Origin: Anaerococcus sp. AGMB09787 | Lineage (GTDB): Bacteria; Bacillota; Clostridia; Tissierellales; Peptoniphilaceae | Reading direction: 5' to 3' | DNA: 42,291 bases | NCBI RefSeq assembly: GCF_022808955.1 | Contig: NZ_JAKZEY010000010.1 | Coordinates: 1 to 42,291, forward strand | Shown here: positions 19,448-41,695 of the stretch, one piece after another | How positions within the stretch are numbered: the first letter of the stretch is position 1 | Layout of the letters: each line of letters starts with the position of its first letter | The notes under the pieces: generated by a model | What the model was told of the DNA's origin: nothing | The model's input: the letters and a program-made list of their open reading frames with translations, nothing else | Database searches by the model: none | Translations under genes and position numbers: made by a program

Positions 19448-19468
19448 ATGCTAATAAAGGAGAATACA

Positions 19469-22580: not shown

Positions 22581-22588
22581 AAACTCAA

Positions 22589-22615
22589 AGCCTTCCTTAT
22601 ATATAGGGAGGGCCT
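22589..22615 (+). terminator. Terminator of metE-metF
   Basis: AGCCTTCCT pairs with AGGGAGGGCCT (imperfect, with one bulge) 8 bp after the metF stop. Only a mixed T/A stretch follows, so the bidirectional hairpin at 22657 may help. Confidence 0.5.
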
Positions 22616-22656
22616 ATTTATAGGGGCTTAGGTAAAATAAAAATTGACAAGAAAAA

Positions 22657-22693
22657 ACCAGTTAACCATGGCTAGTGGCAACTGGTATTTTTT
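22657..22693. terminator. Bidirectional terminator between metF and fruA
   Basis: ACCAGTT (22657-22663) pairs with AACTGGT (22680-22686). On the plus strand it is followed by ATTTTTT, and on the minus strand by TTTTTTC, so it can end both converging operons. Confidence 0.8.
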
Positions 22694-22695
22694 GA

Positions 22696-24576
22696 TTATC
22701 TTATTTTATTGGCATCTTTTTTAACTAGTCCCAATAATAAGGCTCCCACTATAGAACCCACTAGGATTGATAGGATGTAGAATAATGGATTATCTATAAC
22801 TCCTATTACCCACATACCACCATGAGGGGCTATCAAGGCACAAGAGAAGATCATAGATAGCATACCGGATATGGCTGATCCGACTACACTTGCAGGGATT
22901 ACTCTAAGAGGGTCTGCTGCTGCAAAAGGGATAGCTCCTTCTGTTATAAAGGATAGGCCCATGATAATATTGGTAGGGATGGTTTGTCTTTCCTTGTCTG
23001 TGTACTTGTTTTTAAAGATAATCATAGATATAGCAAGGGCTAGTGGAGGTACCATTCCTCCTGCCATAACAGCTGCCATTATCATTGATGATCCTTCTGC
23101 AAGGCTTGCTGTACCAAATATATAGGCTGCCTTGTTGATTGGTCCTCCCATATCTATAGCCATCATACCCCCAAGCAATAGTCCTAGGACGATCTTGGAT
23201 GCTGATCCCATGTTGTTTAGGAAGTTAGTTATCGCAAGGTTTAGTCCTGCTAGAGGTGGATTTAGTAATAGGAGCATTATTAGACCGATTGTAAGGATTC
23301 CTACTAGTGGAAAGATTAGGATAGGTTTTAGTCCATCCATGCTCTTTGGTAGGGGCTTGGTTATTTTTCTTAATAATATTATGATTAAACCTGATAGGAA
23401 ACCTGCGATTAAGGCACCCAAGAAGCCTGCTCCACCTTCATTGGCCAAGAATCCACCTACAAATCCTACAGTAAGTCCTGGCCTATCTGCTATACTCATT
23501 GCAATAAATCCAGATAGGATAGGAAGCATGAAGCCGAAGGCAGCCCCACCTATCTTGTTGAAGATTGCTGCGATTGGGGTATTTGAACCAAAATTAGCAG
23601 GGTCTATGGTATAGTCGTCAAGCAAGAAGGCTATGGCTATAAGGATACCACCACCAACTACAAAGGGTAGCATGTGGGATACACCATTCATTAGGTGCTT
23701 ATAGATAGTTTGTCCCAGACTTGATGGAGCCTTTTCTTCCCTGATTTCGATTCTTTTATCGCTCTTATAGACTGGAGCCTTTGCATCAATTATTAGATTT
23801 ATTAGGTCTTTTGGCTTGTTGATACCATCTGATACCTTGGTTTCTACTAGCCTTTTGCCGTTAAATCTTGATTTTTCTACTCCTACATCGCTGGCTATTA
23901 TTATTCCCTTGGCCTTATCAATTTCTTCCTTGCTTAGTGCATTTTCGATACCTGTTGATCCGTGGGTTTCGACCTTGATTGTGTAGCCTAGGTCTTTGGC
24001 CTTATTTTCTAGGGCTTCCTTGGCCATAAAGGTATGGGCGATACCAGTAGGGCAGCCTGTTATAGCTAAGATATCATAAGTAGAATTGCTATCTTTAGCT
24101 TCAAAGTCATCAGGGAATTTTTCTATTTCCTTAGCTTCTATGATTTTTAAAAATTCTTCGGTATTTTTTGCCCCTAATAAGGCATTTCTAAAGTCAGCAT
24201 CCATTAGCATGGTGGATAGTCTTTGAAGTAGGACTATATGATCATCACTTGCCTTTTCTGGAACTGCTATCATAAAAAATAGGTGGGCCAATTCTCCATC
24301 TAGGGAATCAAAGTCTGCTCCTTCTTTGATGGTCATGGCTGCGAGGTGGGGTGTCTTTACTCCCTTGGACTTGGCGTGGGGGATGGCTACACCTTCTCCG
24401 ATTCCTGTTGTGCTAGATACTTCTCTCTTTAGGACATCACTTTTGTAGAGGTCCTTATCAACTAAGACTTGGCTATTGTCCATGAGGTCTACTAGTCTAT
24501 CTATTAGGTCTTCCTTGGATCCAGCTCTTGCATTTAATTCTATAGAAGACTCACTAAGTAGGTCAATTATTTTCAT
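22696..24576 (-). CDS. fruA: Fructose-specific PTS permease, IIA-IIB-IIC fusion
   Basis: A 626-residue membrane transporter that imports fructose and phosphorylates it to fructose 1-phosphate. Domains run IIA (about 1-145, phosphoryl His in GVAIPHAKSKG near 60), IIB (about 165-265, phosphoryl Cys in ITGCPTGIAHTFMA) and IIC (about 285-620, around nine to ten membrane helices rich in Gly and Ile). The start is the ATG at 24576 after AAGGAGAAGGAT; the upstream ATG at 24594 lacks a site. It overlaps fruK by 14 bp. Operon order fruR-fruK-fruA is standard for Firmicutes. Confidence 0.94.
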   Translation of the reverse strand: MKIIDLLSESSIELNARAGSKEDLIDRLVDLMDNSQVLVDKDLYKSDVLKREVSSTTGIGEGVAIPHAKSKGVKTPHLAAMTIKEGADFDSLDGELAHLFFMIAVPEKASDDHIVLLQRLSTMLMDADFRNALLGAKNTEEFLKIIEAKEIEKFPDDFEAKDSNSTYDILAITGCPTGIAHTFMAKEALENKAKDLGYTIKVETHGSTGIENALSKEEIDKAKGIIIASDVGVEKSRFNGKRLVETKVSDGINKPKDLINLIIDAKAPVYKSDKRIEIREEKAPSSLGQTIYKHLMNGVSHMLPFVVGGGILIAIAFLLDDYTIDPANFGSNTPIAAIFNKIGGAAFGFMLPILSGFIAMSIADRPGLTVGFVGGFLANEGGAGFLGALIAGFLSGLIIILLRKITKPLPKSMDGLKPILIFPLVGILTIGLIMLLLLNPPLAGLNLAITNFLNNMGSASKIVLGLLLGGMMAIDMGGPINKAAYIFGTASLAEGSSMIMAAVMAGGMVPPLALAISMIIFKNKYTDKERQTIPTNIIMGLSFITEGAIPFAAADPLRVIPASVVGSAISGMLSMIFSCALIAPHGGMWVIGVIDNPLFYILSILVGSIVGALLLGLVKKDANKIR

Positions 24577-25486
24577 ATCCTTCTCCTTTTTCATATAAGT
24601 TATAAATTTCTTCCTTGCTAGCTATAGTAGGGCTAAAGGCTGTGGCAGATCCACAAGCAACAGCGAATTTGAAGGCTTCTTCATCGGTAAATTCGTGGAT
24701 TTTACCATAAACAAATCCACCTACCATGCTATCTCCAGAGCCTACGGTATCTATAATTTTTCCCTGGTAAGCTTTTTTGAAATATTCTTCATTATCTTTA
24801 TTTATCATATAGGCCCCATCGCCACCCAGGGACACTATTACATTTTCTGCTCCCATTTCTCTAAGCTTTCTGGCGTAAGTGGCTAGGTCGTCTTTTGTAT
24901 TGATTTTAACACCAAAAATCCCTTCAAGCTCTCTTAGGTTGGGCTTTATGAGGTAGGGTCTATGGGTTAGGGTCTTGGTAAGGCTTGGGCCACTCGCATC
25001 GACTATTATCTTAATTTTTTTATCAGCTAGGCTATCCATAAGCTTTCCATAAAAATCATCTCCCAATGAGTCTGGGATTGACCCTGATAGGAAGAGGTAG
25101 TCCCCATCTTCTATAGTATTAATTATTTCAAATAACTTATCTAGGGCATCCTTATCAATATCTAGGCCTGGTCCATTGATTTCAGTCTCGACCTTGCCCT
25201 TGATTTTGACATTTATTCTTGTAAAGCCTTCCTTAACCTTGATAAATTTCTCATCTAGGCCAAGGTCATCTCTTACAAGTTGGATTAGCTCCCTTCCAGT
25301 AAATCCTCCTACAAAGCCCAGGGCAAGGCTTTCTTCCCCCAAGTTTTTGAGGAGGTTAGTCACATTGATTCCCTTGCCACCTGCCTTTATTTTTTCGTAG
25401 GTCATTCGGTTTGTTTCACCAAGTTTCAAATCACCTGTTCCTACTATATGGTCAAGAGCAGGATTCAAACTTAGAGTATAAATCAT
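24563..25486 (-). CDS. fruK: 1-Phosphofructokinase
   Basis: A 307-residue PfkB-family sugar kinase that turns fructose 1-phosphate into fructose 1,6-bisphosphate with ATP. It starts MIYTLSLNPALDHIV, has the GGKGINVTNLLKNLG substrate block (about 37-51), and ends with the catalytic GSGDSMVGGFVYG (Asp about 251). Its ATG overlaps the fruR stop codon by one base in TAATG, and the ribosome binding site AGGAGG lies in the last fruR codons, so the two are translationally coupled. Confidence 0.94.
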   Translation of the reverse strand: MIYTLSLNPALDHIVGTGDLKLGETNRMTYEKIKAGGKGINVTNLLKNLGEESLALGFVGGFTGRELIQLVRDDLGLDEKFIKVKEGFTRINVKIKGKVETEINGPGLDIDKDALDKLFEIINTIEDGDYLFLSGSIPDSLGDDFYGKLMDSLADKKIKIIVDASGPSLTKTLTHRPYLIKPNLRELEGIFGVKINTKDDLATYARKLREMGAENVIVSLGGDGAYMINKDNEEYFKKAYQGKIIDTVGSGDSMVGGFVYGKIHEFTDEEAFKFAVACGSATAFSPTIASKEEIYNLYEKGEGYENN

Positions 25487-26235
25487 TAGTCCTCCTTATA
25501 TGTTTTAATTAGAATTTCATAGGAAGTATCCTTTTTCTTGCTGGTTATAATTTTAAGCTTTGGATCTTTTGAGAAGGAAACTTGAGATACTAGACCAAAC
25601 TTAGATGAATCTGCCAGGATAAAGGCCTTCTTACACCTTGATAAAGCCTTTCTCTTGACCATGGCCTCATTGATATCTGGTGTCGAAAATCCTGTTTCCT
25701 TATGGATTCCATTGGTCCCAAAAAATCCTAGGGTAAAGTTAAAATTATCCAAGAAATCTGTAGTCGCTGGCCCAAGTAGGGACTCAGTAGGCCCCTTTAG
25801 ATTTCCAGGCAAGATAAAAACATTTTGATTAATTAAAGCAAGCTTTTTAGCACAAGTTATAGAATTAGTAACAAACTTTAGATTATTAGCCTTGATATAA
25901 GGAATCATGGCTTCTACAGAAGTACCTGAATCCAGGTAGACAAAGTCATTGTCTTTGATAAAGCTTGCTCCGTACTTACCTATAAAAACTTTTTCCTCAA
26001 TATTTAAAGTTGCTTTGGAGGTCATATCCTCTTCGGTAGTAATATATTGAGCGTTTTTGATTGAATTAGCACCACCAAAAATTTTATGAATTTTATTGAG
26101 CGAGTCAAGTTCATTCAAGTCCCTCCTCACAGTAGCCAGAGATATCCCTAGAGCCTCAGCTATCTCCCTGGTCTTTACTGTTCCTCTCTTGTTTACCAAA
26201 TCTATAATTTTACCTAATCTCTCTTCCTTTAACAT
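25486..26235 (-). CDS. fruR: DeoR-family fructose operon repressor
   Basis: A 249-residue regulator. The N-terminal helix-turn-helix is KTREIAEALGISLATVRRDL (about 20-39), followed by the GG-containing linker IFGGAN. The C-terminal DeoR effector domain has LDSGTSVEAM, FVTNS and the GFFGTNGIH block that senses a sugar phosphate, in this family fructose 1-phosphate. It is the first gene of fruR-fruK-fruA and likely represses its own promoter through the repeats at 26262-26299. Confidence 0.9.
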   Translation of the reverse strand: MLKEERLGKIIDLVNKRGTVKTREIAEALGISLATVRRDLNELDSLNKIHKIFGGANSIKNAQYITTEEDMTSKATLNIEEKVFIGKYGASFIKDNDFVYLDSGTSVEAMIPYIKANNLKFVTNSITCAKKLALINQNVFILPGNLKGPTESLLGPATTDFLDNFNFTLGFFGTNGIHKETGFSTPDINEAMVKRKALSRCKKAFILADSSKFGLVSQVSFSKDPKLKIITSKKKDTSYEILIKTYKED

Positions 26236-26255
26236 AATTCTCCCTTTCTATTACC

Positions 26256-26284
26256 ATTATAAATCAAAATAAAATCAAAGTCAA
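26256..26284 (-). promoter_or_regulatory. Promoter of fruR-fruK-fruA
   Basis: On the minus strand TTGACT (26284-26279) and TATAAT (26261-26256) are exactly 17 bp apart. The spacer itself consists of operator-like repeats. Confidence 0.75.
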
Positions 26285-26299
26285 GCAAAAACAATCAAA
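26262..26299. promoter_or_regulatory. Three AATCAAA repeats: probable FruR operator
   Basis: AATCAAA occurs at 26262-26268, 26273-26279 and 26293-26299, that is 11 and 20 bp apart, on one face of the helix. Two copies lie between the -10 and -35 boxes and one just upstream. DeoR-family repressors typically bind such direct repeats. Confidence 0.65.
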
Positions 26300-26426
26300 A
26301 TAAATCTTAACCAAAAATGTCTTATTGGATTAATTATCTAATTAATTTATTATTTTATAATGAAAATTATTTGTATTTTTTTAAAAAAAAGTGATATACT
26401 TAGGTAAAATATAAGGAGGAAGTTGT

Positions 26427-26657
26427 ATGGATGATAAGATGAAGAAAAATCAAGTTGAAGGTGTGATAATTACCAAGTGGGGCTCAATCTTTATACCAAA
26501 TGAAGAATATGAAAAGAAGGGCTTAAAAAGATTGACACGAGATGGTGACAAAGTGATACCTGTAGGTAAGAAAGAAAAAAATGGTGATTCCGTAATGGAA
26601 AATGCCATATATTATCCAGACGAAAATAAGATAGTAGTCACAATTGATTTAGATTAA
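26427..26657 (+). CDS. Small hypothetical protein, 76 aa
   Basis: AAGGAGGAAGTTGT gives a strong start at 26427 and a terminator follows the stop, so this is a genuine single-gene unit divergent from fruR. TATACT at 26395 could be its -10 box. The protein is soluble and highly charged, with many Lys and Glu. Its middle reads GVIITKWGSIFIPNEEYEKK, and it ends in an alternating strand, KIVVTIDLD. I do not recognise a family. No membrane segment, cysteine or signal peptide is visible. Confidence 0.75.
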   Translation: MDDKMKKNQVEGVIITKWGSIFIPNEEYEKKGLKRLTRDGDKVIPVGKKEKNGDSVMENAIYYPDENKIVVTIDLD

Positions 26658-26662
26658 CTTAC

Positions 26663-26706
26663 TTGGTCAATATGCATTAATAGATGTGTGTTGACCGAAT
26701 TTTTTA
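26663..26706 (+). terminator. Terminator after the small gene
   Basis: TTGGTCAA (26663-26670) pairs with TTGACCGA (26691-26698), followed by ATTTTTT. Confidence 0.75.
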
Positions 26707-26822
26707 TAATTCACTAATTTTTTCTATTAATAATCTAGGATTCTATATTTTAAATCCTCTTAGTTATAAAAGTCTTTGGAATATTTCCCTAAATAGGTTA
26801 AAATATTAGGAGAGGTGAGTGT

Positions 26823-28238
26823 ATGGTTAAGAGATTTAGATATTTATTTTTATGTTTTATTATGATATTTACTCTTGTAGCTTGTAGCTCTTCCAATTCA
26901 AATGAGGAAGAAGTAAAAATATCTACCATTGATGACTTGATGGCAAATATTGAAAGATCATCAGGAGATGAAGAAGGTGACCTAAGCCCAGTTGAGGAGC
27001 AGGCTAAAAATGATGTCAAGAAGGAAGATGCAAGAGATAAGTGGGAGAAGAGTATAGCCAGGGCCAAAAAAGAAGAGGAAGAAGCAAAGAAGAGGCGAGA
27101 GAACCTAACAAGCTTCGAAGATTCTAAGACTAGGACCAAAAGGGAAGGTAGTAAACCAACAAATGAAGAAGCTTCAGCAGATGATGCTAACGAAGAAGAA
27201 AAAACTGCTAGGATCAAATTCTTTGGGGATACCATGGCCCACTTGGGTCAAATCCAATATGCCTATAACTATGGTGGCGGAAGCTATGACTTTTCCAACC
27301 AATACTATTATATATCTGACTTTGTGAAGGATGCAGATCTAGCCATTACAAACTATGAAACAACAAGTAATCCTAATAGGCAATACGCAGGATATCCAAG
27401 GTTTAACACACCTGAGACATATCCACAGGCAATAAAGGATGCGGGTTTTGATGTAGTAACCACTGCCAACAACCACTCCCTAGATACTGATGAAGAGGGA
27501 ATCTTTACCACAATAGATGCTATAGAAAGTGCTGGTCTAGACTATGTGGGTACTCATGAAGAGGAAGGAGAAAGGATCTTATATAAGGAAGTAAATGGAA
27601 TGAAACTTGCTATTCTTTCCTACACCTATGGAACCAATGGCATAGAAGACCTCCTAACTCCAAGGGAAGAAGTCCCATATATCAACTACCTTCACGAGGA
27701 TGAAATAAAAAAAGACATAGAAGAAGCCAAGAAAAACAAGGCTGATTTCATAATAGCCTACCCTCATTGGGGGATAGAATACCAATCCTACCCAGAAGGA
27801 GAAATCATAGAACTAGCTCGTTCCATGGTAGAATGGGGAGCAGACCTGGTAATCGGTAACCACCCTCACGTTGTCCAACCTATGGAAAGATACAAGGCAG
27901 AAGATGGTAGGGAAGGATTGATTGCCTACTCCCTTGGAAACTATATATCAATCCAATCCTTAGAAAACAACAATGACATAAGGGTAGAGCAATCCGTGGC
28001 CTATGAAGTAACCTTAAAGAAAAATGGCAAGGACAAAAAAATTGCTGACGTCAAAATCCATCCCCTATGGGTAGGGTCAACCTATGATGATTATGGCCAA
28101 TCCATCAAGACCTACTTGGCTGAAGACTTCCTTGATGGTGGCAAATACTACAATGAGGTTGACGAAAACCAAAGATATAGGATCCAGCAAGCATACGATA
28201 TGACCATGGAAACAGTAACTAGTGAGGTTAGTCAATGA
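26823..28238 (+). CDS. CapA-family lipoprotein
   Basis: A 471-residue exported protein. The N-terminus is a lipoprotein signal, KRFRYLFLCFIMIFTLVACS, with lipobox LVAC and lipidated Cys near residue 21. Residues 25-130 are a low-complexity, Lys/Glu-rich spacer, probably helical. Residues about 135-440 form the PGA_cap metallophosphoesterase-like domain, with FFGDTMAH, ITNYETT, TTANNHSLD, AYPHWGIEY and IGNHPHVVQP, and SLGNYIS near the end. CapA proteins act in poly-gamma-glutamate capsule work or related wall functions, but no capB or capC is present, so the exact role is open. The PAP2 gene overlaps by 4 bp. Confidence 0.88.
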   Translation: MVKRFRYLFLCFIMIFTLVACSSSNSNEEEVKISTIDDLMANIERSSGDEEGDLSPVEEQAKNDVKKEDARDKWEKSIARAKKEEEEAKKRRENLTSFEDSKTRTKREGSKPTNEEASADDANEEEKTARIKFFGDTMAHLGQIQYAYNYGGGSYDFSNQYYYISDFVKDADLAITNYETTSNPNRQYAGYPRFNTPETYPQAIKDAGFDVVTTANNHSLDTDEEGIFTTIDAIESAGLDYVGTHEEEGERILYKEVNGMKLAILSYTYGTNGIEDLLTPREEVPYINYLHEDEIKKDIEEAKKNKADFIIAYPHWGIEYQSYPEGEIIELARSMVEWGADLVIGNHPHVVQPMERYKAEDGREGLIAYSLGNYISIQSLENNNDIRVEQSVAYEVTLKKNGKDKKIADVKIHPLWVGSTYDDYGQSIKTYLAEDFLDGGKYYNEVDENQRYRIQQAYDMTMETVTSEVSQ

Positions 28239-28804
28239 CAAACTTTGAACTAAGCATACTAAACGCCCTTCAGGGCATGAGAACAGAATTCTTGGATAGA
28301 TTTTTCGTAACGATAACTTCCCTTGGAAATCTCTCCATAATATGGATTACAATGATAGTAATCTTTATGACCACAAGACGCAACAAGTCGCTAGGCAAGG
28401 TCATGATAATAGGATTTATACTAAACCTAATCCTAGTAAACCTAATCCTAAAGGTCCTATTTGCAAGGGAAAGACCCTACGAAGTCGCACACTTTACTGG
28501 CCTACTAATCCATGGCCTAAGCGATAACTCCTTCCCATCAGGACACACTTCCTATGCCTTTACCTTTGCAACAATATTATTCCTATTGACCAAGTCAAAA
28601 TTCCTAAAGGGATATATATCACTACTGGCATTACTAATAGCCTTCTCAAGACTCTACCTCTATGTACACTTCCCAACAGATGTCATAGCAGGAGCCTTGG
28701 TAGGGATAATAATAGGAATTCTATCAATTAGAATCTACCAGTCAAAAACTTATAAAGACCTAGAAGAAAAAATCACTTTACAAGTTCTAAAAAATAAAGT
28801 ATAA
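28235..28804 (+). CDS. PAP2-family membrane phosphatase
   Basis: A 189-residue integral membrane protein with about five helices. The three phosphatase motifs are KVLFARERPYE (about 69-79), SFPSGHTSYAF (about 97-107) and FSRLYLYVHFPTDV (about 136-149), containing the phosphate-binding Arg and the catalytic His pair. Such enzymes dephosphorylate phosphatidic acid or undecaprenyl diphosphate at the outer membrane face; this short form could recycle the undecaprenyl carrier. It starts in ATGA, overlapping the CapA-like gene, which suggests both serve the cell envelope. Confidence 0.88.
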   Translation: MTNFELSILNALQGMRTEFLDRFFVTITSLGNLSIIWITMIVIFMTTRRNKSLGKVMIIGFILNLILVNLILKVLFARERPYEVAHFTGLLIHGLSDNSFPSGHTSYAFTFATILFLLTKSKFLKGYISLLALLIAFSRLYLYVHFPTDVIAGALVGIIIGILSIRIYQSKTYKDLEEKITLQVLKNKV

Positions 28805-28820
28805 TTAAATGGTAACATAA

Positions 28821-28907
28821 GCCGGTGTGTTGGAATTGGCAGACGAGACAGACTCAAAATCTGTTGTCCGCAAGGGCGTGTGGGTTCGAGTCCCACCACC
28901 GGCACCA
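28821..28907 (+). tRNA. tRNA-Leu (anticodon CAA)
   Basis: An 87-nt class II tRNA. The acceptor stem is GCCGGTG (28821-28827) with CACCGGC (28897-28903), followed by ACCA, so CCA is encoded. The anticodon stem ACAGA/TCTGT encloses the loop CTCAAAA, giving anticodon CAA. The long variable arm runs TGTCCGCAAGGGCG, and the T arm is GTGGGTTCGAGTCCCAC. It lies 17 bp after the PAP2 gene and is the last core gene before the second accessory island. Confidence 0.95.
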
Positions 28908-28917
28908 TTTATTTTTG

Positions 28918-28947
28918 AGAAATGTTGTTTTCAGCATTTCTTTTTTT
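28918..28947 (+). terminator. Terminator after tRNA-Leu
   Basis: AGAAATG (28918-28924) pairs with CATTTCT (28935-28941), followed by TTTTTT. Confidence 0.8.
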
Positions 28948-29275
28948 ATTTAAGATGATGATCTTTCTCATATTTTCTTAAAGACTGAGGTTCAAATGTT
29001 CCTTCTCTATCTCTTAGAATACTTAAATATATATTTCTATATGATGATTTAACTGTTTTTTTACTTGATCCGTTTCTTGTGTTAAGGGATAAGGGCTTTT
29101 CTCCGTATTCATAATCTAAATGTTCATCAAGTTCTGCTTTTAAAAGCTCTTACATTGTATCGCCTAAAAGATCTTTTAGTGCTTCTTGAATATCTTGTGC
29201 GCTTTGAGGCTTATATTCTTCAATTAACATTTTTGCTATTTTGCTTCTTTTTGTCTCCAGTCTTTTTCTTGGAAT
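28946..29275 (-). pseudogene. IS256-family transposase, N-terminal remnant
   Basis: About 109 codons remain of a transposase of roughly 400 residues. The frame reads PRKRLETKRSKIAKMLIEEY and then PQSAQDIQEALKDLLGDTM, is interrupted by TAA, and goes on with ELLKAELDEHLDYEYGEK, NTRNGSS and DREGTFEPQ, all hallmarks of the IS256 mutator-type N-terminus. The catalytic DDE region is absent. The expected start codon after AGGAGGAATTTTT is ATT (29275) rather than ATG. The truncation, internal stop and weak start all say it is dead. Confidence 0.8.
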
Positions 29276-29282
29276 AAAAATT

Positions 29283-29318
29283 CCTCCTGATTAGTTTGTA
29301 CTTACCCTAATCAGGAGG
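29283..29318. repeat. 12-bp inverted repeat hiding the transposase ribosome binding site
   Basis: CCTCCTGATTAG (29283-29294) and CTAATCAGGAGG (29307-29318) are perfect reverse complements. On the minus strand the second arm contains the AGGAGG that would start the transposase, so transcripts entering from outside would fold and block translation. This is a known way for insertion sequences to limit expression from neighbouring promoters; its use here is inferred. Confidence 0.75.
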
Positions 29319-29456
29319 TTTCTATACACAAAATTTTACACAGTCTCTTTAAAAGTGCTTAAAATTGTTATTTGAATTCTCAAATCACACAGTACAATCT
29401 TATTTGTTACACAGCAGACCTTTAGGTTATTTATTAAGTTTTTATAATTTTAAAAA

Positions 29457-31079
29457 TTATATTGTTTCACTCTCAATGTTATTGTAAATTGTAGCATGTT
29501 TCTCTAAATCTATGACTTGATCAAATAATTTCTTTTGTTCATCGCTAATTTTATGACTTATCATTATTAACAATATATCCATGTTAAGTAATATATCCAT
29601 AACTGACCTTGCTGACTCATCATCTAAGCTTGATGTTATTTCGTCAGCAAATATTACTTTTTTATCTCTAGCAAGCGCCCTTATTATAGATATTTTCTGT
29701 CTTTGTCCTCCAGAAAAATTTTTACCATTTTCAGATAAAATATATTCACCTTTATATTCATCGATTCCTACTAGTTTTAATAGTTTATTAGCTGTTTGTT
29801 CATCTGTATTGATATTTCTTGCTAAACTTTCATTAAATAGAAATGTATTTTGATCTATGTATGATATAGATGTAAATACATTAAAATTGTCAATTTTTCT
29901 GCCATTAATTAAAACATCGCCTTCAAAATTATTAATTTGACCTGTTAAAACTTTAATAAAGGTACTTTTTCCATACCCACTAGGTGCTTGAATTAAATAT
30001 TTTTTACCAGCTTTAAAAATCATATCATCATATGCAATTTGTTTCGCACCAAAATCTACTTTTATATTTTTGCTCTCAATAGTTTTTATTTCTACGGATT
30101 TCTCTTTGACCTCAAGTGGTGGTAATGTTTCTTTCTTTTTAAAAAATAGTGGTTTAGTATAGAAGTCTGTATATATCTCTTCAAATTCACTAAATCTATT
30201 TTCATATAAATCTAAACCTGACTTATAAAATGTTTTATCTGATACATACATAGAAATTGTCTCAGATAAGAAAGGAATTAATGATAGTGTAGAGAGCAAA
30301 TAACCAGCTTTTACTTTTCCAGTTATGACGAAGTAAGATACTAAACTTAATGAAACTAATGTGAAAATATCTCCAGCTAGAGTTAACACAGCGCTCATTA
30401 ACCCTGCAAACTTATCTGCTTCTGTAATATCATCCGCAAACTTTTCGCCAGATTTTTGACTTTTAAGAGAAAAAAATTTAAAATTATTATTTTGAACTAA
30501 TGATGTAAATCCAGACAATAGTTCTGTAATATTTTTTAAATAGCTTTCAGTTGTATCCTGTGATAGTGCTATATATTTAGATAGTTTTTTTTCAAATAAT
30601 TTAGGCAATATATACATAAATAGCATCAACACCAAACCCAATATAAATAAAAAATAATGAATTCTAAGTAAAGAAATAAGTATCAAAACTATAATTGCAG
30701 CATCGAAAGTCATATTCAAAAATCTTACCATAGTCAAGTTGATTAGCTTAGATACATCATTTACGTAAGTAGAACCTCGTGCACCTATGGGTTTTTTATT
30801 AAAATCGCCAATACTTATTTTTTTATATTTTTCATCAACCCTAAAGTAAAATTGTCTCTTTAAGTAATATTCAATTATAGATCGCTGTCTTAAATTTAAA
30901 TATTGTAATAAATCCTTAGCTAAATATATAGACAATATAATTAAAATAGATTTGTACAAATCTGAAATTGTGTCTACTACAATTAAAGAAAGAGCGTTCA
31001 TTAATAAGACATTAAGTAATGCATAAATAATAGAAAATAAAATGCCCAACTTAAAAGAATTGAATTTAAACATTTTCAT
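29457..31079 (-). CDS. ABC exporter of the tiny-peptide locus
   Basis: A 540-residue half-transporter with about six membrane helices in residues 10-280 and an ATPase domain behind. Walker A is APSGYGKSTFIK (about 354-365), the signature is FSGGQRQKISIIRALAR (about 446-462), Walker B is KVIFADE with D-loop SSLD, and the H-loop is ISHK. There is no peptidase domain. It begins in ATGA, a 4-bp overlap with the radical SAM gene, so the two are co-translated. Probable export of the modified 26-residue peptide. It is only distantly similar to the exporter at 7038-8678, so the two loci are not duplicates. Confidence 0.85.
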   Translation of the reverse strand: MKMFKFNSFKLGILFSIIYALLNVLLMNALSLIVVDTISDLYKSILIILSIYLAKDLLQYLNLRQRSIIEYYLKRQFYFRVDEKYKKISIGDFNKKPIGARGSTYVNDVSKLINLTMVRFLNMTFDAAIIVLILISLLRIHYFLFILGLVLMLFMYILPKLFEKKLSKYIALSQDTTESYLKNITELLSGFTSLVQNNNFKFFSLKSQKSGEKFADDITEADKFAGLMSAVLTLAGDIFTLVSLSLVSYFVITGKVKAGYLLSTLSLIPFLSETISMYVSDKTFYKSGLDLYENRFSEFEEIYTDFYTKPLFFKKKETLPPLEVKEKSVEIKTIESKNIKVDFGAKQIAYDDMIFKAGKKYLIQAPSGYGKSTFIKVLTGQINNFEGDVLINGRKIDNFNVFTSISYIDQNTFLFNESLARNINTDEQTANKLLKLVGIDEYKGEYILSENGKNFSGGQRQKISIIRALARDKKVIFADEITSSLDDESARSVMDILLNMDILLIMISHKISDEQKKLFDQVIDLEKHATIYNNIESETI

Positions 31080-32356
31080 ATTTTACCTCTTATACATAAA
31101 TTATGTTTATTAGTCATTTCATCAAATTTTAAAACTTCATCTATATCAACGATACCTTTATATTTGGAACATCTAGCTTGGCCATGTTTCAAATAAAATA
31201 AAGGACACGCCCCTCCTCCACAACCTGCATACATGTGACATCCTACACATTTTTCAGAAAATCGAGCTGCTTTCCAAATATTATTAAATTTATTAAATTC
31301 AATTTTTCCATCGTAATTTAATTTACCAACTATACTGAATTCATCATTCACATCAGTGCACCTTGCTACAGACATATCGGAATTTATAGAATAATGATTG
31401 TCCTTTATAGCATAGCAAAACGATGTATCCAAAGTTAAATAAGAAGATAATCTTGCAAATCTTATATTATAATTATACGCTATTTTCATTTCTTCTAAAA
31501 CATCTCTATCAGTCACATCATGGCTTAAATCACTAAAATTAACTACAGGATGAAACATTGCTATAAACCTCTTATCATCAAAAAACTCTGAAATATCTTT
31601 ATAATACCCCTCCATATTTCCGAGCATAATTTTTGATATATTACTTCTCAATATAATTTTATATTTATACCTTGTAGACTTAATATATTTTAAATTATTT
31701 ATAATTTTATCAAAAGTGCCACTACCATTCTTTAATAACCTTTGACTATCGTGGAGTTTGCTGTCTCCATCGATGGTAATTTGATATGTATTTACATAAT
31801 TTACCAACCTATTAAAATTGTTCTCATTTAAATTATAACCATTTGTTACAACACTCGATGAATAATTAATATTATTTAAATTGCTAAAATTAATAATATC
31901 TTTAGATAAACTTTCAATAAAATCTATATTTAATAAAGGTTCCCCACCAAAGAAAACGATTATCAAATTTCTAAAATTATTTTCTTTATATTTCCTTATA
32001 ATAAATTTTAATATAGCATTTTTTTCTTCCACGCCCATATTAATTACATCAAAATTTTCGTAACAATATGTACATCTAAAATTGCAATCTTTTGTAATCT
32101 TGATTATGAGTTGAAGTGTATCATCTGACTTAAGCACATTTTTATGAATCATCTTTATTTCTTCAGTTTCATTTTCAGTTTTGAAAAATAATTTTTTCTC
32201 CAAAAAATCACTAATTTTTTTATTGCTTATAAAATCATTTGTATCTTTGAAATCACTATTTGGATATTTAATAAAGAAACCATTTTTACTATTAAAAAGT
32301 ATTTTATATTCTCCATTATAACTATCTGTTACAAAAACATATTTTGATAATTCCAT
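31076..32356 (-). CDS. Radical SAM/SPASM peptide maturase, second locus
   Basis: A 426-residue enzyme. Residues 1-75 form an N-terminal domain starting MELSKYVFVTDSYNGEYKIL with the NSKNGFFI block seen in many peptide maturases. The SAM cluster motif is C91-x3-C95-x2-C98 (KDCNFRCTYCYENF), followed by FFGGEPLLNID, SSVVTNGY and YQITIDGD. The SPASM part has SFCYA, VARCTD, the dense block KCVGCHMYAGCGGGACP and a last Cys in QARCSKYKG. AGGAGAGATTT precedes the ATG. Its likely substrate is the 26-residue peptide encoded just upstream. That peptide has no cysteine, so a thioether bond is unlikely and a carbon-carbon, carbon-nitrogen or epimerisation chemistry would be expected. Confidence 0.88.
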   Translation of the reverse strand: MELSKYVFVTDSYNGEYKILFNSKNGFFIKYPNSDFKDTNDFISNKKISDFLEKKLFFKTENETEEIKMIHKNVLKSDDTLQLIIKITKDCNFRCTYCYENFDVINMGVEEKNAILKFIIRKYKENNFRNLIIVFFGGEPLLNIDFIESLSKDIINFSNLNNINYSSSVVTNGYNLNENNFNRLVNYVNTYQITIDGDSKLHDSQRLLKNGSGTFDKIINNLKYIKSTRYKYKIILRSNISKIMLGNMEGYYKDISEFFDDKRFIAMFHPVVNFSDLSHDVTDRDVLEEMKIAYNYNIRFARLSSYLTLDTSFCYAIKDNHYSINSDMSVARCTDVNDEFSIVGKLNYDGKIEFNKFNNIWKAARFSEKCVGCHMYAGCGGGACPLFYLKHGQARCSKYKGIVDIDEVLKFDEMTNKHNLCIRGKI

Positions 32357-32371
32357 AAATCTCTCCTAATG

Positions 32372-32405
32372 AGATCATTTATATAACTAGTATTTAAAAT
32401 GATCT
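32372..32405 (-). repeat. Hairpin between the tiny precursor gene and its maturase
   Basis: AGATCATTT (32372-32380) and AAATGATCT (32397-32405) are a perfect 9-bp inverted repeat in the 57-bp gap. There is no T run after it on the minus strand, so it is more likely a stabiliser, processing site or partial attenuator that keeps peptide mRNA above enzyme mRNA. Confidence 0.55.
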
Positions 32406-32413
32406 TTTACATA

Positions 32414-32494
32414 CTAATTCATATTTATTACAATATATGAATCATTTTGAACTACTATTTCTTCATCATTAAATTCAAATACTATTTCTTGCAT
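32414..32494 (-). CDS. Candidate 26-residue RiPP precursor
   Basis: A 27-codon gene, too short for usual ORF cut-offs. It has AAGGAG five bases before the ATG and a consensus promoter 50 bp upstream, and is followed directly by a maturase and an exporter. It starts MQEIVFEF and ends YIVINMN. Three similar segments can be aligned: EIVFEFND, EIVVQND and YIVINMN, with Ile-Val at 4-5, 13-14 and 21-22 and Asn-Asp at 9-10 and 17-18. It has no cysteine, three acidic residues in its first ten positions and one Tyr (20). Its size is like PqqA, the shortest known radical SAM substrate. I know of no family that matches. That it is translated and modified is inference from position and signals. Confidence 0.65.
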   Translation of the reverse strand: MQEIVFEFNDEEIVVQNDSYIVINMN

Positions 32495-32545
32495 TTTAAC
32501 TCCTTATTTGATAAATAAATTTATTTAATTCAGTATACTAATAAA

Positions 32546-32573
32546 ATTATACTTATCAATATTTTTTTGTCAA
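32546..32573 (-). promoter_or_regulatory. Promoter of the tiny-peptide locus
   Basis: On the minus strand TTGACA (32573-32568) and TATAAT (32551-32546), both perfect consensus, are 16 bp apart. The expected transcript starts near 32539 and reaches the ATG of the 26-residue gene after about 45 nt. Two short palindromes, AGTATACT (32532-32539) and AATAAATTTATT (32515-32526), lie in the leader and could be operator sites. Confidence 0.75.
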
Positions 32574-32737
32574 AATAATAATAATCAGTTTGATTTTATT
32601 CAGGTCTTTGACAGTTGAATAATAAAAGTTTTCGTGTAGTTATTGATACGCCTATATTTTTTTGTTAAATTTTTAATTTTTATTTGAGTAATGTGATGTA
32701 ATGTTTAATAATATTAATATGTCCTTGGAGGAATATT

Positions 32738-33292
32738 ATGCGAATAGCTATGTCTAAATCTACTAATACTATTAATTTTTATCTTGTAGATGATGTTAAG
32801 TTGGATAATGGGAAAAGAAAAACTATTACTATTGAAAAACTTGGTAATTCTCAATTTGTAGCTAAAAAAAACGGTACTGATGATTTTATTGATTTTCTTA
32901 AGGATTATGCTAAAGAGAATACTATTGAGCTCAATGAAGGAAATCTGGATATTTCTTTTTCTCTTTTTAATTACAAGTTGATTGATAAGGATTCTTTCAA
33001 TTCATTTAAAGGTGGTTCCTTTTTTCTTCTAGATATTTATTACAAACTTAAGGTTGATGAGATTTGTGAAGATATTTCTAAGAGGCATAAATTTTCTTTT
33101 GATTTGAATGAGTGCCTAGCTTTTATGGTTTTTGATAGGGTTATTAATCCATCTAGTAAATTGACTACTTTTGAGTCGACTTCTTCATATCTTTTAAGGC
33201 CTAAGTATGATATTCAGCATTTGTATAGAGCTTTGTCTGTCCTTGCATTGGAGTCTAAGACTCTCATTGCTTTGATACAATTTAATGTTTGA
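32738..33292 (+). pseudogene. IS1634-family transposase, N-terminal remnant
   Basis: The first 184 codons of a transposase that is normally about 550 residues. It starts MRIAMSKSTNTINFYLVDDV after GGAGG, and its tail has FDLNECLAFMVFDRVINPSS and KYDIQHLYRALSVL, both typical of the IS1634/IS4-like group. The frame ends in a stop at 33290 and the catalytic DDE core is absent, so it is dead. The 33293-33441 stretch that follows shows no gene. With the IS256 remnant at 28946 it brackets the second peptide locus. Confidence 0.75.
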
Positions 33293-33441
33293 CTTTTTGA
33301 GAGCGAATTTTATTATTTTGCACACCCCTATTTGAAAAGCGTTAAAAGGTATAAAGGCAATAAAAAAAGACGGTGATTTTACTGTCTTGGGTATGTAAAA
33401 TTATGAAATTCAAATAATAAAATCTCCCCACCCATTTCCTT

Positions 33442-33470
33442 TTGCATTATCCTCAAACTTGTATTATAAT
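33442..33470 (+). promoter_or_regulatory. Promoter of the thiamine operon
   Basis: TTGCAT (33442-33447) and TATAAT (33465-33470) are 17 bp apart, and the riboswitch starts six bases later. Confidence 0.8.
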
Positions 33471-33475
33471 ATAAG

Positions 33476-33559
33476 TAGCTAGGGGTGCTTTTTAGCTGAG
33501 AGATGGTAAAACATTAACCCTTTAAACTTGATTAGGTTAGTACCTTCGTAAGAAAGCTA
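33476..33559 (+). promoter_or_regulatory. TPP riboswitch (THI element)
   Basis: The conserved blocks appear in order: AGGGGTGC (33481-33488), GCTGAGAGA (33495-33503), ACCCTTTAAACTTGATTAGG (33517-33536) and GTTAGTACCTTCGTAAGAAA (33537-33555). TAGCT and AGCTA at the two ends close the basal stem. It binds thiamine diphosphate and represses the thiS-thiF-thiG-thiH operon. Confidence 0.95.
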
Positions 33560-33577
33560 TTTATTTTGAAGTTTAAT

Positions 33578-33604
33578 GGTCCCTGGCTTAGGGGGCTTTT
33601 TTTT
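33578..33604 (+). terminator. First leader terminator, riboswitch platform
   Basis: GGTCCCT pairs with AGGGGGC (imperfect stem), followed by eight T. It lies 18 bp after the aptamer and is the likely regulated terminator. Confidence 0.75.
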
Positions 33605-33636
33605 AATGGCTCTGTAATATTTATTTGTTGTGTTTT

Positions 33637-33687
33637 ACACGAAAGGGGCATACCACCTCGGGTATGGTTGCTCTTTTCGTGTTTTTT
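33637..33687 (+). terminator. Second leader terminator before thiS
   Basis: ACACGAAAGGGGCATACC pairs with GGTATGGTTGCTCTTTTCGTGT apart from small bulges, followed by TTTTTT. It is stronger than the first and ends only about 15 bp before the thiS start. GTGTTTTACAC just before it could compete as an antiterminator. Confidence 0.75.
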
Positions 33688-33702
33688 ATAGGAGGTGAGC
33701 TT

Positions 33703-33900
33703 TTGTTAGTTATTAATGGTAAGGAAGTTCCTTTTGAAAAAGAGAAGTCCTTGTATGAGATTCTTGTGGAGAATTTTTTTGATCCTTCTTTTGTGGCCGT
33801 TGAGGTTAATGAGAAGCTGGTTAAGCGTGAGGATTTTAGAGATTTTCTCGTAAAAGATCAGTACAAGATTGAGGTGTTTTCTTTTGTAGGAGGGGGCTGA
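33703..33900 (+). CDS. thiS: Sulfur carrier protein ThiS
   Basis: A 65-residue ubiquitin-like carrier that brings sulfur, as a C-terminal thiocarboxylate, to thiazole synthesis. It begins with TTG at 33703, with GGAGG 7 nt ahead, giving LVINGKEVPFEKEKSLYEI; a longer frame from 33625 would run through the terminator and is rejected. The C-terminus SFVGGG carries the glycines that ThiF adenylates. Length fits the family. The stop overlaps the thiF ATG by one base. Confidence 0.9.
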   Translation: MLVINGKEVPFEKEKSLYEILVENFFDPSFVAVEVNEKLVKREDFRDFLVKDQYKIEVFSFVGGG

Positions 33901-34517
33901 TGGAAGATTTAAGGAAAAAGATTTTAGCTAGGCAAAGGAATGAGGATAATGAAATTTTTAAGGAGGCTACAGTTTCTATTTTAGGATGTGGAGGTCTTGG
34001 TTCCAATATTGCCATGATGCTTGCAAGGTCTGGTATAGGTCATATCAATTTGTATGACTTTGACGTGGTTGAGTATTCTAATCTTAATAGGCAAAATTAT
34101 TCTGTCAATGAAGTTGGCCAAAGGAAGGTAGATGCTACGAAAAATAGGCTAGAGGAGACCCTTCCCTTTGTAGATGTCAAGGCCTATAATATCTACCTTG
34201 ATGATGAAAATCTCGATCAGATACTTGATGGGGCAAATTATTTTATTGAGGCCTTTGACAATAAGGAGTCAAAGATTAGGGTCTTTGATTATTTTGTAAA
34301 TAGGGAAGGTAAGTATCTTTTTACTGCATCAGGTCTTTCTGGCCTTGGTAGTCTAGAAGATGTTAAGATAAAGAATTTTGATAATATTACTATGGTTGGA
34401 GATTTTTATTCAAAACCGGAGGAAGATGGCCTGTACTTGCCTTATGTTTCTATAGTGGCAAGTCTTGAGGCTTTGGAATGTTTAAAGAAGATAAGGGAGG
34501 ATTATTATGGACGATAA
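33900..34517 (+). CDS. thiF: ThiS adenylyltransferase ThiF (short form)
   Basis: A 205-residue E1-like enzyme that adenylates the C-terminus of ThiS. The nucleotide-binding loop is [20 protein letters not shown] (about 26-45), followed by [15 protein letters not shown] with the Asp and Arg of the active site. The protein lacks the C-terminal zinc-Cys pairs of the E. coli form, as in the short clostridial family of about 200 residues. Start and stop overlap thiS and thiG, so the operon is tightly coupled. Confidence 0.9.
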
Positions 34518-35271
34518 GTTTATTTTAGGGGATAAGGAGTTTACTTCTAGGTTTATCCTTGGAAGTGGTAAGTACTCAGTAGATTTAATCGATGCGGCAG
34601 TCAAAAATGCAGGCTGTGAGATGATTACAGTAGCCCTCCGTAGGGCAAATACTAAGAATGTGGCCAATATTTTAAATTATATACCAAAGGATGTTACTAT
34701 TATCCCAAATACATCAGGAGCTAGAAATGCAGATGAAGCTATAAGGATAGCCAGGCTTGCTAGGGAGATGGGCTGTGGTAATTTTGTTAAAATCGAGATT
34801 ATGAGGGATAGTAAGTACCTCTTACCAGATAATGAAGAAACTCTAAGGGCAAGTCAAGTTTTGGCCAAGGAAGGTTTTGTAGTTCTTCCTTATATGTATC
34901 CAGATCTAAATTATGCAAGGGACCTAAGGGATGTAGGAGCTGCTGCAATCATGCCACTCGCAGCCCCAATTGGATCAAACAAGGGACTTGTTACCAAGGA
35001 ATTTATTAAGATAATTATTGATGAGGTAGATCTCCCTGTCATAGTAGATGCTGGAATTGGCGTACCTAGTCAAGCAGCCGAGGCCATGGAGATGGGAGCT
35101 GCTGCAATTATGGCCAATACTGCTATTGCCTCTGCCAAGGATATTACTTTGATGGCTAGGGCCTTCAAGCTAGGAATTGAAGCAGGAAGACTCGCCTACC
35201 TATCAAAGCCAGGAAGGGTTTTGGAAAGTGGTGCAGATCCATCATCACCATTGAGGGACTTCTTTGATTAA
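34507..35271 (+). CDS. thiG: Thiazole synthase
   Basis: A 254-residue barrel enzyme that joins deoxyxylulose 5-phosphate, dehydroglycine and ThiS-borne sulfur into the thiazole ring. RFILGSGKY is near the start, MITVALRR and [13 protein letters not shown] follow, and [20 protein letters not shown] and MANTAIA bind the phosphate. AGGGAGG lies 6 nt ahead of the ATG, inside thiF. Confidence 0.95.
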
Positions 35272-36427
35272 TATGAATATAGAGAAAGTTACAGATTATT
35301 TCCCATCAATGGAAGTAATTGATTCAGATATAAAAGATATTGTTGATAAGTCTTATGAAAATGTAAGGGAGACTAGGGTAAGTGTCGATGATATTAGGGC
35401 AAGCCTTGCCAAGGATAGCCTAAGTGATAGGGACTTCTATAACCTCCTCCAAGACGGGGGCCTAGAGATCCTTGATGAGCTAGGAGAAGTAGCTAGGGAG
35501 AAGAGGACAAGGTACTTTGGAAATAATGTGAGCCTTTTTTCTCCACTTTATATAGCAAATTATTGCGAAAATTCTTGCAGGTATTGTGGCTTTAGGGCCA
35601 AGTCTGATATCAAAAGAGCCAAGCTAACCTTTGTAGAGATAGAAGATGAAATGAAGGCTCTGGCAGCTACAGGCATAGAAGAAGTCCTAATCCTAACGGG
35701 GGAGAGTGAGAGATTTTCTTCAATAGACTATATAGCAAAGGCTTGTGAGATAGCCAAGAAATACTTCAAGACCATAGGGGTCGAGGTTTATCCAGCCAAT
35801 ACCGAAGACTATAAGAAGTTGAGGGCAGCAGGAGCGGACTTTGTTACAGTCTTTCAAGAATCCTACAATAAAAAGGCCTACGACTACTACCATCCTTATG
35901 GCCACAAGAGGTCCTATGTCTATAGGATAGAGACCCAAGAGAGGGCCTTGAGGGCAGGCTTTAGGGGAGTTGGCTTTGGGACCCTCTTTGGACTGAATGA
36001 CCCGATAGAAGAAGCCTACAAACTAGGTATCCATGCCAAGGAAGTCCAAAAGAGATATCCCCAAGCAGAGATAGCCATCTCCCTACCTAGGATTAGACCA
36101 ACCCATGGGGCAGATAAATTAGATTTTTATGAAGTTAATGACAAGAAATTCTTCCAAATAATGCTTGCGATTAGGATATTCCTGCCCTTTGCATCAATTA
36201 CCCTATCAACTAGGGAGGATAGGGACTTTAGAAACTTGGCGGTAAAATATGGAGCTACTAAAATATCAGCATCAGTTGATACCTCCATCGGTCATAGGTC
36301 CAAAAAATCTAAGGACGAAGGAGATGAACAATTCGAAATCCAAGATGGAAGGTCTTGTGATGATGTCATAAATGATTTGAAAGAAATAGGAATGAGTCCC
36401 GTTTTGACAGACTATATAAACTTATAA
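35264..36427 (+). CDS. thiH: 2-Iminoacetate synthase (tyrosine lyase) ThiH
   Basis: A radical SAM enzyme of about 387 residues that splits tyrosine into p-cresol and dehydroglycine for ThiG, the oxygen-independent route. The cluster motif is [14 protein letters not shown] (Cys about 98, 102, 105). [18 protein letters not shown] and [10 protein letters not shown] are family blocks. GAGGG lies 6 nt before TTG at 35264, which overlaps thiG; an ATG at 35273 is possible but badly spaced. It confirms an anaerobic lifestyle. No thiC, thiD or thiE is present here. Confidence 0.92.
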
Positions 36428-36436
36428 TAGATGCCA

Positions 36437-36477
36437 CCCCAAAAGGAAGGAAAGCCACCGACTTTTTGGGGATTTTT
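36437..36477 (+). terminator. Terminator of the thiamine operon
   Basis: CCCCAAAA (36437-36444) pairs with TTTTTGGGG (36463-36471), followed by ATTTTT. Confidence 0.8.
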
Positions 36478-36598
36478 GTACAAGGCTTATATTATTTTAT
36501 CTAGCAGTCTTGTCTTGATAATTGGCTACTCATTTATTAAAAAAATTAATTATCAAATATAAGGATGAAAGACTTGGTATAAGTAAGTCATAAGAAAT

Positions 36599-36943
36599 AT
36601 GAAAATAGGAATAAAAACTTCAATGATTTACACCCTATTCTCAGCCATCGTTTTTTCACTCTTGCACTCAGTAAATATCTTGGGAGGTCTTCCAATTAAC
36701 CAAGTACTTAGCCAATTTATAACTACCTTATCTTCAGGTCTATACTATGTTGTAGTCTATATGGCTGCAAAGAATATAGCCTTACCGATTATCTTCCATG
36801 GATTATGGGACTATATTTCCCTATCAGAGATAACCAAGACCTACCCTATCGTAAATTGGATAATCATCTTTCCTGTACTGGCACAATTAATAGCAAGCCT
36901 TGTCGTAATTTTTAGTCATAGGAAGTATTTTATGGACAAGTAG
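36599..36943 (+). pseudogene. C-terminal part of a CPBP (Abi/Rce1) membrane protease
   Basis: This 114-residue frame has three to four membrane helices and the second and third CPBP motifs: FSLLHSV (about 20-26) and FHGLWDYI (about 83-90), whose His residues bind the catalytic site. The first motif, a Glu-Glu pair with Arg, is missing, and family members are normally 200-300 residues, so this is the back half of a protease. No good ribosome binding site stands before the ATG and I find no matching N-terminal half upstream. Some CPBP proteins give immunity to bacteriocins; here the protein is probably inactive. Confidence 0.65.
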
Positions 36944-37016
36944 GAATATTTGATTATAGATGGTCTATATTGCAAACTTTACCTAGACAAGTATTAATAG
37001 AAGGAGGGGGTAACTT

Positions 37017-37667
37017 ATGGATAAAATTTTAATAATTGAAGATAATAAAGACCTTGCCCAACAAATTAAAAGTTATTTGGAAAAATCTGCCTATGAAGTC
37101 GATGTGGCCTACTCATTTTATGAGGCTAGCTATAAGATTAATATAGACTTTGACTTGGCTCTATTAGATATTAACCTCCCCGATAAGGATGGAGACTATT
37201 TGCTTGGAAAGCTAAAGGATAAAAATATTAGGGTAATAGTTACGACTGTGAAGGACGATGAGGACTTTATAATCAAATCCCTAGATCATGGGGCAGATGA
37301 TTATCTAACTAAGCCTTTTTCTCTAGCTATACTTAGAGCGAGGATTGATGCGGTTTTGAGGACTCTACCCCTTAGCCAGGATAAAACTATCATCTTTAAG
37401 GATATGAGGGTAGACCTCAATAATTCTAAGATTTATTATAAGGAAAGGCCAGTTGATTTAACAGCTCTCGAATATGATATCTTGTTATTTTTTATAAGAA
37501 ACCCCCACAGGGTCTATACCCGTAGGCAGTTACTGGAAGCCTTTTGGGAAGATAGGGATAGGTTTGTAAGTGATAATACCCTAACATCAACCATCAAGAG
37601 GATTAGGGGCAAGCTAGCTCCTTCTGTAATAACTACGGTTAGGGGTATTGGATACAGGATGGATTAG
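37017..37667 (+). CDS. OmpR-family response regulator
   Basis: A 216-residue two-component regulator. The receiver domain (about 1-118) has the acidic pair in IIEDNKD, the phosphoacceptor Asp in ALLDINLPDKDG (about 52) and the Lys in LTKPFS. The C-terminal winged helix (about 125-216) ends in VSDNTLTSTIKRIRGKL and RGIGYRM. AAGGAGGGGGTAACTT gives a strong start. Its stop abuts the kinase gene, and ABC genes follow, the arrangement of peptide-antibiotic response modules in Firmicutes. Confidence 0.92.
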   Translation: MDKILIIEDNKDLAQQIKSYLEKSAYEVDVAYSFYEASYKINIDFDLALLDINLPDKDGDYLLGKLKDKNIRVIVTTVKDDEDFIIKSLDHGADDYLTKPFSLAILRARIDAVLRTLPLSQDKTIIFKDMRVDLNNSKIYYKERPVDLTALEYDILLFFIRNPHRVYTRRQLLEAFWEDRDRFVSDNTLTSTIKRIRGKLAPSVITTVRGIGYRMD

Positions 37668-38528: not shown

Positions 38529-38573
38529 AAATCACTTTACTTGTATATACTTACCTTAAAGAAGGAGGCAAGT

Positions 38574-41679: not shown

Positions 41680-41695
41680 AAAAGAAAGGATACCT

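Follow-up and report, generated by a model that had tools for sequence, protein, structure and literature searches.

An apparently acquired radical S-adenosylmethionine operon in Anaerococcus encodes a 26-residue peptide without cysteine

Radical S-adenosylmethionine (SAM) enzymes modify ribosomally synthesized and post-translationally modified peptides (RiPPs) in several ways. Streptide is described as a 9-mer whose precursor is modified by a radical SAM enzyme and accompanied by a transporter (PMC13361665), PapB as an enzyme that links a thiol to a residue bearing a carboxylate (PMC9413430), and TvgB as converting Val to cyclopropylglycine (PMC9062424); Cβ crosslinks (PMC11002830) and epimerization of Val and Ile (PMC8326336) are also reported, and in CteB an N-terminal RiPP recognition element (RRE) binds the leader as a beta-strand (PMC8326336). 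Here, we consider a minus-strand locus in a stretch of 42,291 nucleotides from Anaerococcus sp. AGMB09787 (contig NZ_JAKZEY010000010.1; the whole stretch is called the window below), where a 26-codon open reading frame (ORF) precedes the genes for a radical SAM enzyme and an ATP-binding cassette (ABC) exporter (Table 1). These genes (32494-29457) apparently form a small RiPP operon of peptide, probable modifying enzyme and exporter, and its origin appears to be acquired. We consider it likely that the peptide of this operon is modified by chemistry that does not depend on Cys and is exported without the help of a C39 peptidase domain.

The case for the small ORF comes from a second copy in the same genome. 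A search of that genome with the enzyme recovered a single close relative, on contig C17, with 38% identity (hereafter the sister). It is the closest enzyme found, and it too is preceded by a small frame, MKETIVFEFNNEKKQFVGRCFSVITINVK, of 29 codons behind AAGGAGG. When this peptide and the window peptide (MQEIVFEFNDEEIVVQNDSYIVINMN, 26 residues, no Cys) are aligned over their full length, 14 of 26 residues are identical, as against 38% for the two enzymes, and none of 20,000 shuffles scores as well. The window ORF ends 57 bases 5' of its enzyme start, and the sister ORF lies 63 bases 5' of its own enzyme. In the shared block IVFEFN(D/N)E, 3 of the 8 codons differ between the copies, two of them silently. 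Because a related peptide precedes the sister enzyme at a similarity that no shuffle matched, the small ORF is, on this comparison, a real gene, and a chance ORF was rejected on the same score. Across a sample of 391 class genomes, the pattern GGAG-ATG-IVFEF occurs only in the window and at the sister, the reversed control giving none, and just three ORFs of 20-40 residues stand behind GGAG-N4-9-ATG in the whole window. The preliminary description of this DNA had located the 26-codon gene with its ribosome binding site, the perfect -35/-10 pair, and the enzyme and exporter genes overlapping by 4 bp, all of which we recovered at the same coordinates. It had also recognized no known precursor family, and the 26 residues indeed give no match to Pfam or NCBIfam at E ≤ 1, although queries this short rarely match.

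Table 1. Features of the operon and of its immediate flanks (window positions)
Feature	Position	Strand	Basis
Sigma-70-type promoter TTGACA-16-TATAAT	32546..32573	-	12/12 consensus match, 51 bases 5' of precursor ATG
Ribosome binding site AAGGAG of precursor	32500..32505	-	Sequence
Precursor peptide gene, 26 codons, MQEIVFEFNDEEIVVQNDSYIVINMN	32414..32494	-	ORF, sister-peptide alignment, motif scan
Inverted repeat between precursor and enzyme, AGATCATTT/AAATGATCT	32372..32405	-	9 pairs, folding versus shuffles
Radical SAM/SPASM-type peptide maturase, 426 residues	31076..32356	-	Profile searches, alignment
ABC exporter, membrane and ATPase domains fused, 540 residues	29457..31079	-	ORF, Pfam/NCBIfam
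tRNA-Leu(CAA), flank of operon	28821..28907	+	tRNA scan
Broken frame beside tRNA-Leu, transposase-like N-terminus	28946-29290	-	Appearance of the frame
IS1634-type transposase-like fragment, other flank	32738..33292	+	35.4 bits, below cut-off 100; no Pfam match

In our view, the window and sister peptides are a rare family with two members, both of them very short RiPP precursors and only that of the window free of Cys. Searches with a profile built on the two enzymes (A1) found nothing near the pair's own scores (810-822 bits) in overlapping samples of 31 genus, 130 family, 249 order and 398 phylum genomes (E limits 1e-25, 1e-44, 1e-50 and 1e-52, respectively); the best other match reached 181 bits, and in the other 30 genus genomes none exceeded 163 bits. 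In 391 class genomes, profile A3 recovered 15 additional loci, spread over 14 other genomes and including at least two places already known; no IVFEF-like frame is among the upstream frames listed, and for six of the loci no small frame is listed. The upstream survey covered 38 loci including four repeats, i.e., 32 distinct places besides window and sister. None of these has an IVFEF frame upstream, and 18 of the 32 (counted by reading) have a small frame with two or more Cys behind a ribosome binding site. The enzymes concerned are about 33% identical or less and stand beside unrelated small frames; the check proposed in the preliminary description, namely to look for a conserved small ORF upstream of related enzymes, came out in favor of that description at the closest relative, the sister, and not at these more distant ones. 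A motif scan over the loci collected yielded no further precursor-like frame, as judged by eye, and one scan of genome contigs with poor patterns returned a single weak match. Spread of the peptide through phage was considered and rejected, as none of 38 motif stretches in viral contigs (21 of them in frame, by eye in unrelated, mostly phage, proteins) is accompanied by an enzyme relative at E ≤ 1e-6. The enzyme matches 75 plasmid and 17 phage records, with best identities of 34% and 30% among the 30 and 10 matches listed, respectively. Because these genome searches gave no further member, the family is either rare or has members outside the genomes searched. In the titles and abstracts listed for radical SAM and SPASM enzymes in Anaerococcus, short or Cys-free precursors, streptide, triceptides and TigE, a coverage that leaves out most subscription papers, we recognized nothing as this family, and a search for the letters IVFEFN in the literature returned no paper.

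In a tree of 38 enzymes, window and sister form one clade (support 100/100), whose neighbors, with moderate support (86/85), are the enzymes that we label G166 and G139 and three from viral contigs. Upstream of the G139 enzyme we found no convincing precursor. The G166 locus (L152, G166:C2) belongs to an order-level relative, and its enzyme is 32% identical to that of the window. It consists of short precursors, a strong hairpin, the enzyme and an overlapping gene for a 539-residue ABC protein. The first precursor is MTIVRTGKAYNQPCDVNFFCKIKK (24 codons, behind AAGGAGG); the second ends KKSYNQPCDVNFFCKIKG and has 19 codons from the nearest ATG or 25 from an earlier one, with no strong ribosome site. 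Both frames, which lie ~115-330 bases before position 4030, where the enzyme starts, have the common core YNQPCDVNFFCKIK behind different N-terminal parts, and each contains two Cys. They show no visible similarity to the window peptide, and we treat them as a second short-precursor family. The lack of Cys emphasized in the preliminary description accordingly holds for the window peptide and does not extend to the group, given one Cys in the sister peptide and two in those of G166. Another arrangement was seen on the 10-kb plasmid p8 of Sarcina sp. JB2, where a radical SAM enzyme is accompanied by a major facilitator superfamily transporter instead of an ABC protein and may be preceded by a 23-codon frame (L101, 2343-2414 and 2478-5053); it offers no related peptide.

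In the window, the order is promoter, precursor, inverted repeat, enzyme and exporter, and the promoter, the ribosome binding site and all three frames are intact. The promoter is the sole perfect site among 33 promoter-like sites in a scan of 29300-32760; the weaker sites are uninformative because shuffles predict 30.5. At the sister, a promoter-like site (TTGAAA-17-TAAAAT with a TG, 10/12) lies 22 bases 5' of the ATG (window: 51), and it counts as weak evidence because the scan total of 11 is below the shuffle mean of 15.9. An ATG frame overlaps the sister enzyme frame and is open over eight codons until contig C17 ends, as would be expected of a downstream gene cut off there. The hairpin noted previously between precursor and enzyme exists as an inverted repeat, but in the window it is weak (-7.1 kcal/mol, z = -0.45, 57 of 200 shuffles equal or better), and we rejected it as stand-alone evidence because it is no stronger than shuffled sequence. 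The hairpins at the same place in the sister and in G166 are strong (z = -5.14 and -5.19, with 0 of 200 shuffles as good in either case). A hairpin after a small frame in three loci, strong in two of them, is what might be expected if the 26-codon frame were a regulatory leader peptide that attenuates the downstream genes, with the substrate encoded elsewhere. We consider this highly improbable, as the residues of the peptide are conserved and some codon differences are silent, it contains no single-codon run as in classical attenuators, and the two G166 frames have a common core, as precursors would. Moreover, the 500 bases upstream of the window enzyme contain no other frame of 14-130 residues led by a ribosome binding site.

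The enzyme carries CxxxCxxC at C91, C95 and C98, seven further Cys between residues 314 and 396, and one at 421. The three motif Cys and C314, C333, C370, C373, C379, C384 and C396 are conserved without exception in the 10 enzymes aligned; both marks of a radical SAM maturase, the motif and the C-terminal Cys of auxiliary clusters, are present. Pfam finds Radical_SAM (E = 1.2e-15) and Fer4_12 in the enzyme, and SPASM was not detected in the same scan. Among the best 25 NCBIfam models listed, none has its cut-off passed: the scores are 150.9 bits for TIGR04463 (cut-off 525), 130.8 for CefB (NF038107; 600), 115.8 for Clo7bot (TIGR04334; 600) and 93.5 for PapB (340). TIGR04463, CefB and Clo7bot are the closest family models, the first two near full length, and at 116-151 bits against cut-offs of 525-600 the enzyme is a member of none of them; the sister and G166 enzymes are likewise far below the cut-offs listed. 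The best solved relative is the protein of 5wgg/5why, which we take to be CteB, with sequence matches of 2e-20 over residues 81-289 (profile A1) and 5.6e-39 over 29-401 (the wider profile A2) and a fold match to the enzyme model of 1.5e-16. TigE (8vpo) is the next protein by fold (3.3e-10, 19% identity; sequence match 2.6e-5 over residues 14-397), and a YydG/EpeE-type epimerase matches in sequence only weakly and in part (2.2e-4, 97 profile positions). The structure model is of modest quality, with a predicted local distance difference test score (pLDDT) of 62.5 and a predicted template modeling score of 0.63, and both of the model's ends are too weak for placing a substrate. Its N-terminus has strands at 7-11, 17-22 and 27-32, then helices to residue 74, an arrangement that would fit a leader-binding RRE domain in what is a low-confidence region (pLDDT 39-51 over residues 1-80).

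These relationships bear on a thioether-type (ranthipeptide) reading, under which Cys was lost from the window copy and this copy either decays or acts on another peptide. The closest family models bear the names of Cys-rich peptide maturases, the closest solved structure is a thioether-bond enzyme, the sister and G166 peptides contain Cys (C20 in the sister), and a PapB-family maturase is encoded in the same window. We think this reading unlikely nonetheless, because the operon is intact from promoter to exporter and because the sister Cys aligns with N17 of the window peptide, outside the conserved S-x-I-x-I-N.

Within the peptide, we infer a division into leader and core. Residues 1-11, with the conserved IVFEFN(D/N)E block, are likely the leader, given that the block is strand-like and that the CteB leader binds its RRE as a strand; residues about 12-26, ending S-x-I-x-I-N, are likely the core. 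S19, I21, I23 and N24 are common to both peptides, whereas Y20 (Val in the sister) and the sister's C20 are not. Lacking a thiol, the window peptide cannot form a Cys thioether with itself. If both enzymes share their chemistry, the four residues common to both cores would be the likeliest targets, and we tentatively suggest a change there, by C-H chemistry at Cβ or Cγ such as a cyclopropane, a crosslink at Asn or Ser, or epimerization, although two sequences are too few to decide the chemistry of the enzyme. The conversion of Val to a cyclopropane, the epimerization of Val and Ile and the Cβ crosslinks cited above are radical SAM reactions known at residues of this sort. A triceptide-like cyclophane (3-CyFE), in which the aromatic residue of F-N-(D/N) or Y20 would be joined to the Cβ of the residue two positions on, seems quite improbable. 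The F-x-(D/N) motif is kept in both peptides, as F-N-(D/N) in the N-terminal block, and Phe-Asn, Tyr-Asp and Phe-Ser three-residue cyclophanes are reported in PMC11002830. However, this aromatic-x-acceptor motif sits in the presumed leader, the core aromatic Y20 is replaced in the sister, and the cyclophane families YhhB (78.5 of 445 bits) and FxsB (50.9 of 370 bits) are far from their cut-offs, other such families being absent among the best 25 matches listed.

The operon has a G+C content of 25.0%, compared with 33.8% in the rest of the window (38.1% in 19457-28900 and 35.3% in 33601-42291), and lies between the tRNA-Leu gene with its neighboring broken frame, presumably a mutator-type (IS256) transposase, and the IS1634-type fragment. 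Acquisition by transfer is the simplest reading and is probably correct. Before the tRNA lie a CapA-like gene and a phosphatase gene, a pair present in 28 of the 30 genus loci inspected, own included. The absence of the enzyme from the other 30 genus genomes is a result of the A1 search, with no match above 163 bits; an empty-site test through the phosphatase-flank loci was set aside as uninformative, because these extend only 1.5 kb beyond the phosphatase gene (~360 bases in one case) and would miss the enzyme even at the window's own locus. Elsewhere in the window, another radical SAM enzyme (2247-3599, plus strand) passes the cut-off for PapB-family ranthipeptide maturases (371.5 versus 340 bits), with a Cys-rich 55-residue frame (1385-1552, plus strand) as its candidate precursor. 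A hydrophobic 20-codon frame, MLKELVVVNPNVVIVNFLKN, stands behind GGAGGG at 42192-42254 (plus strand), ending 37 bases before the contig end. The genome as a whole has ten SPASM matches and a decayed radical SAM relative with five internal stop codons (G000:C48:62706-63464).

In the scheme that we propose, one promoter would drive the precursor and, past the hairpin, the enzyme and exporter; the hairpin may reduce read-through into these two genes. The strand-like leader would dock on the N-terminal domain of the enzyme, which would apply 5'-deoxyadenosyl radical chemistry to the C-terminal core, and the ABC protein would export the modified peptide. As the exporter shows no C39 peptidase domain in Pfam or NCBIfam searches and a double-glycine (GG) site is missing from the precursor, leader cleavage, if any, would be done by something other than the exporter.

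Several points weigh against a Cys-independent RiPP operon of this kind. The precursor family consists of just two sequences from a single genome; the sister's ABC gene is not visible on contig C17, and its promoter-like site is not above background; the window hairpin is no better than shuffles; and the 80 N-terminal residues of the model, where the leader would dock, have low pLDDT. Because the sister peptide has one Cys and the G166 peptides two, the ancestral chemistry may be thioether formation, with the window copy a loss variant. Taken the other way, the same series could be a new class, in which an enzyme lineage among thioether makers took up a chemistry independent of Cys, acting on an aliphatic core of 15 residues (S-x-I-x-I-N); the sister with one Cys and G166 with two would be intermediates of the switch. 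We view this as unlikely; if it is true, the precursor would be among the shortest of any radical SAM system.

Until the product is characterized, the operon is one more radical SAM RiPP locus, its enzyme having its closest models and structure tied to Cys-bearing substrates, although it is interesting and easily testable. Peptide, enzyme and exporter occupy less than 3.2 kb, and because the whole substrate has only 26 residues, it can be synthesized and tested directly. The product would reveal how a single radical SAM scaffold comes to catalyze a different reaction, as the closest models and structure are maturases of thioether or Cys-rich peptides and this substrate has no thiol. The IVFEFN leader also provides a seed for finding further genes of a size that ordinary gene callers tend to miss.

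Among known systems, CteB is the best solved match by both sequence and fold, but it is a thioether-bond enzyme (entry title) and requires Cys, which the window precursor lacks; the model names of TIGR04463 and CefB similarly point to Cys-rich substrates. Ranthipeptides and sactipeptides have a Cys thioether donor in the core, whereas the window peptide has none in 26 residues and the sister has one. TigE acts on Ile in a TIG substrate motif, and the repeated T-V/I-G core motif (TVGG or TIG) of the TigE/TvgB cyclopropylglycine-type synthases is missing from both peptides here. In the pyrroloquinoline quinone system, PqqA carries E-x3-Y; the window peptide has Glu at 3, 7, 11 and 12 and its sole Tyr at 20, with no Glu four positions before it. 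The earlier comparison with PqqA-like cases only was too narrow, since the G166 precursors have 24 and 19-25 codons and streptide, which also has a short precursor, is likewise radical SAM-modified. Streptide and other RaS-RiPPs combine precursor, radical SAM enzyme and transporter (PMC13361665), as in the window. They differ in having an Rgg-like regulator, none of which we recognized by eye among ORFs of at least 60 residues in 24000-38000 (shorter shp genes were not looked for), and the window peptide, unlike that of streptide, contains neither Lys nor Trp. G166 has the layout of the window and differs in its two precursor frames with two Cys each. What the window and sister loci have in common with radical SAM RiPPs generally is a small precursor conserved beside its enzyme.

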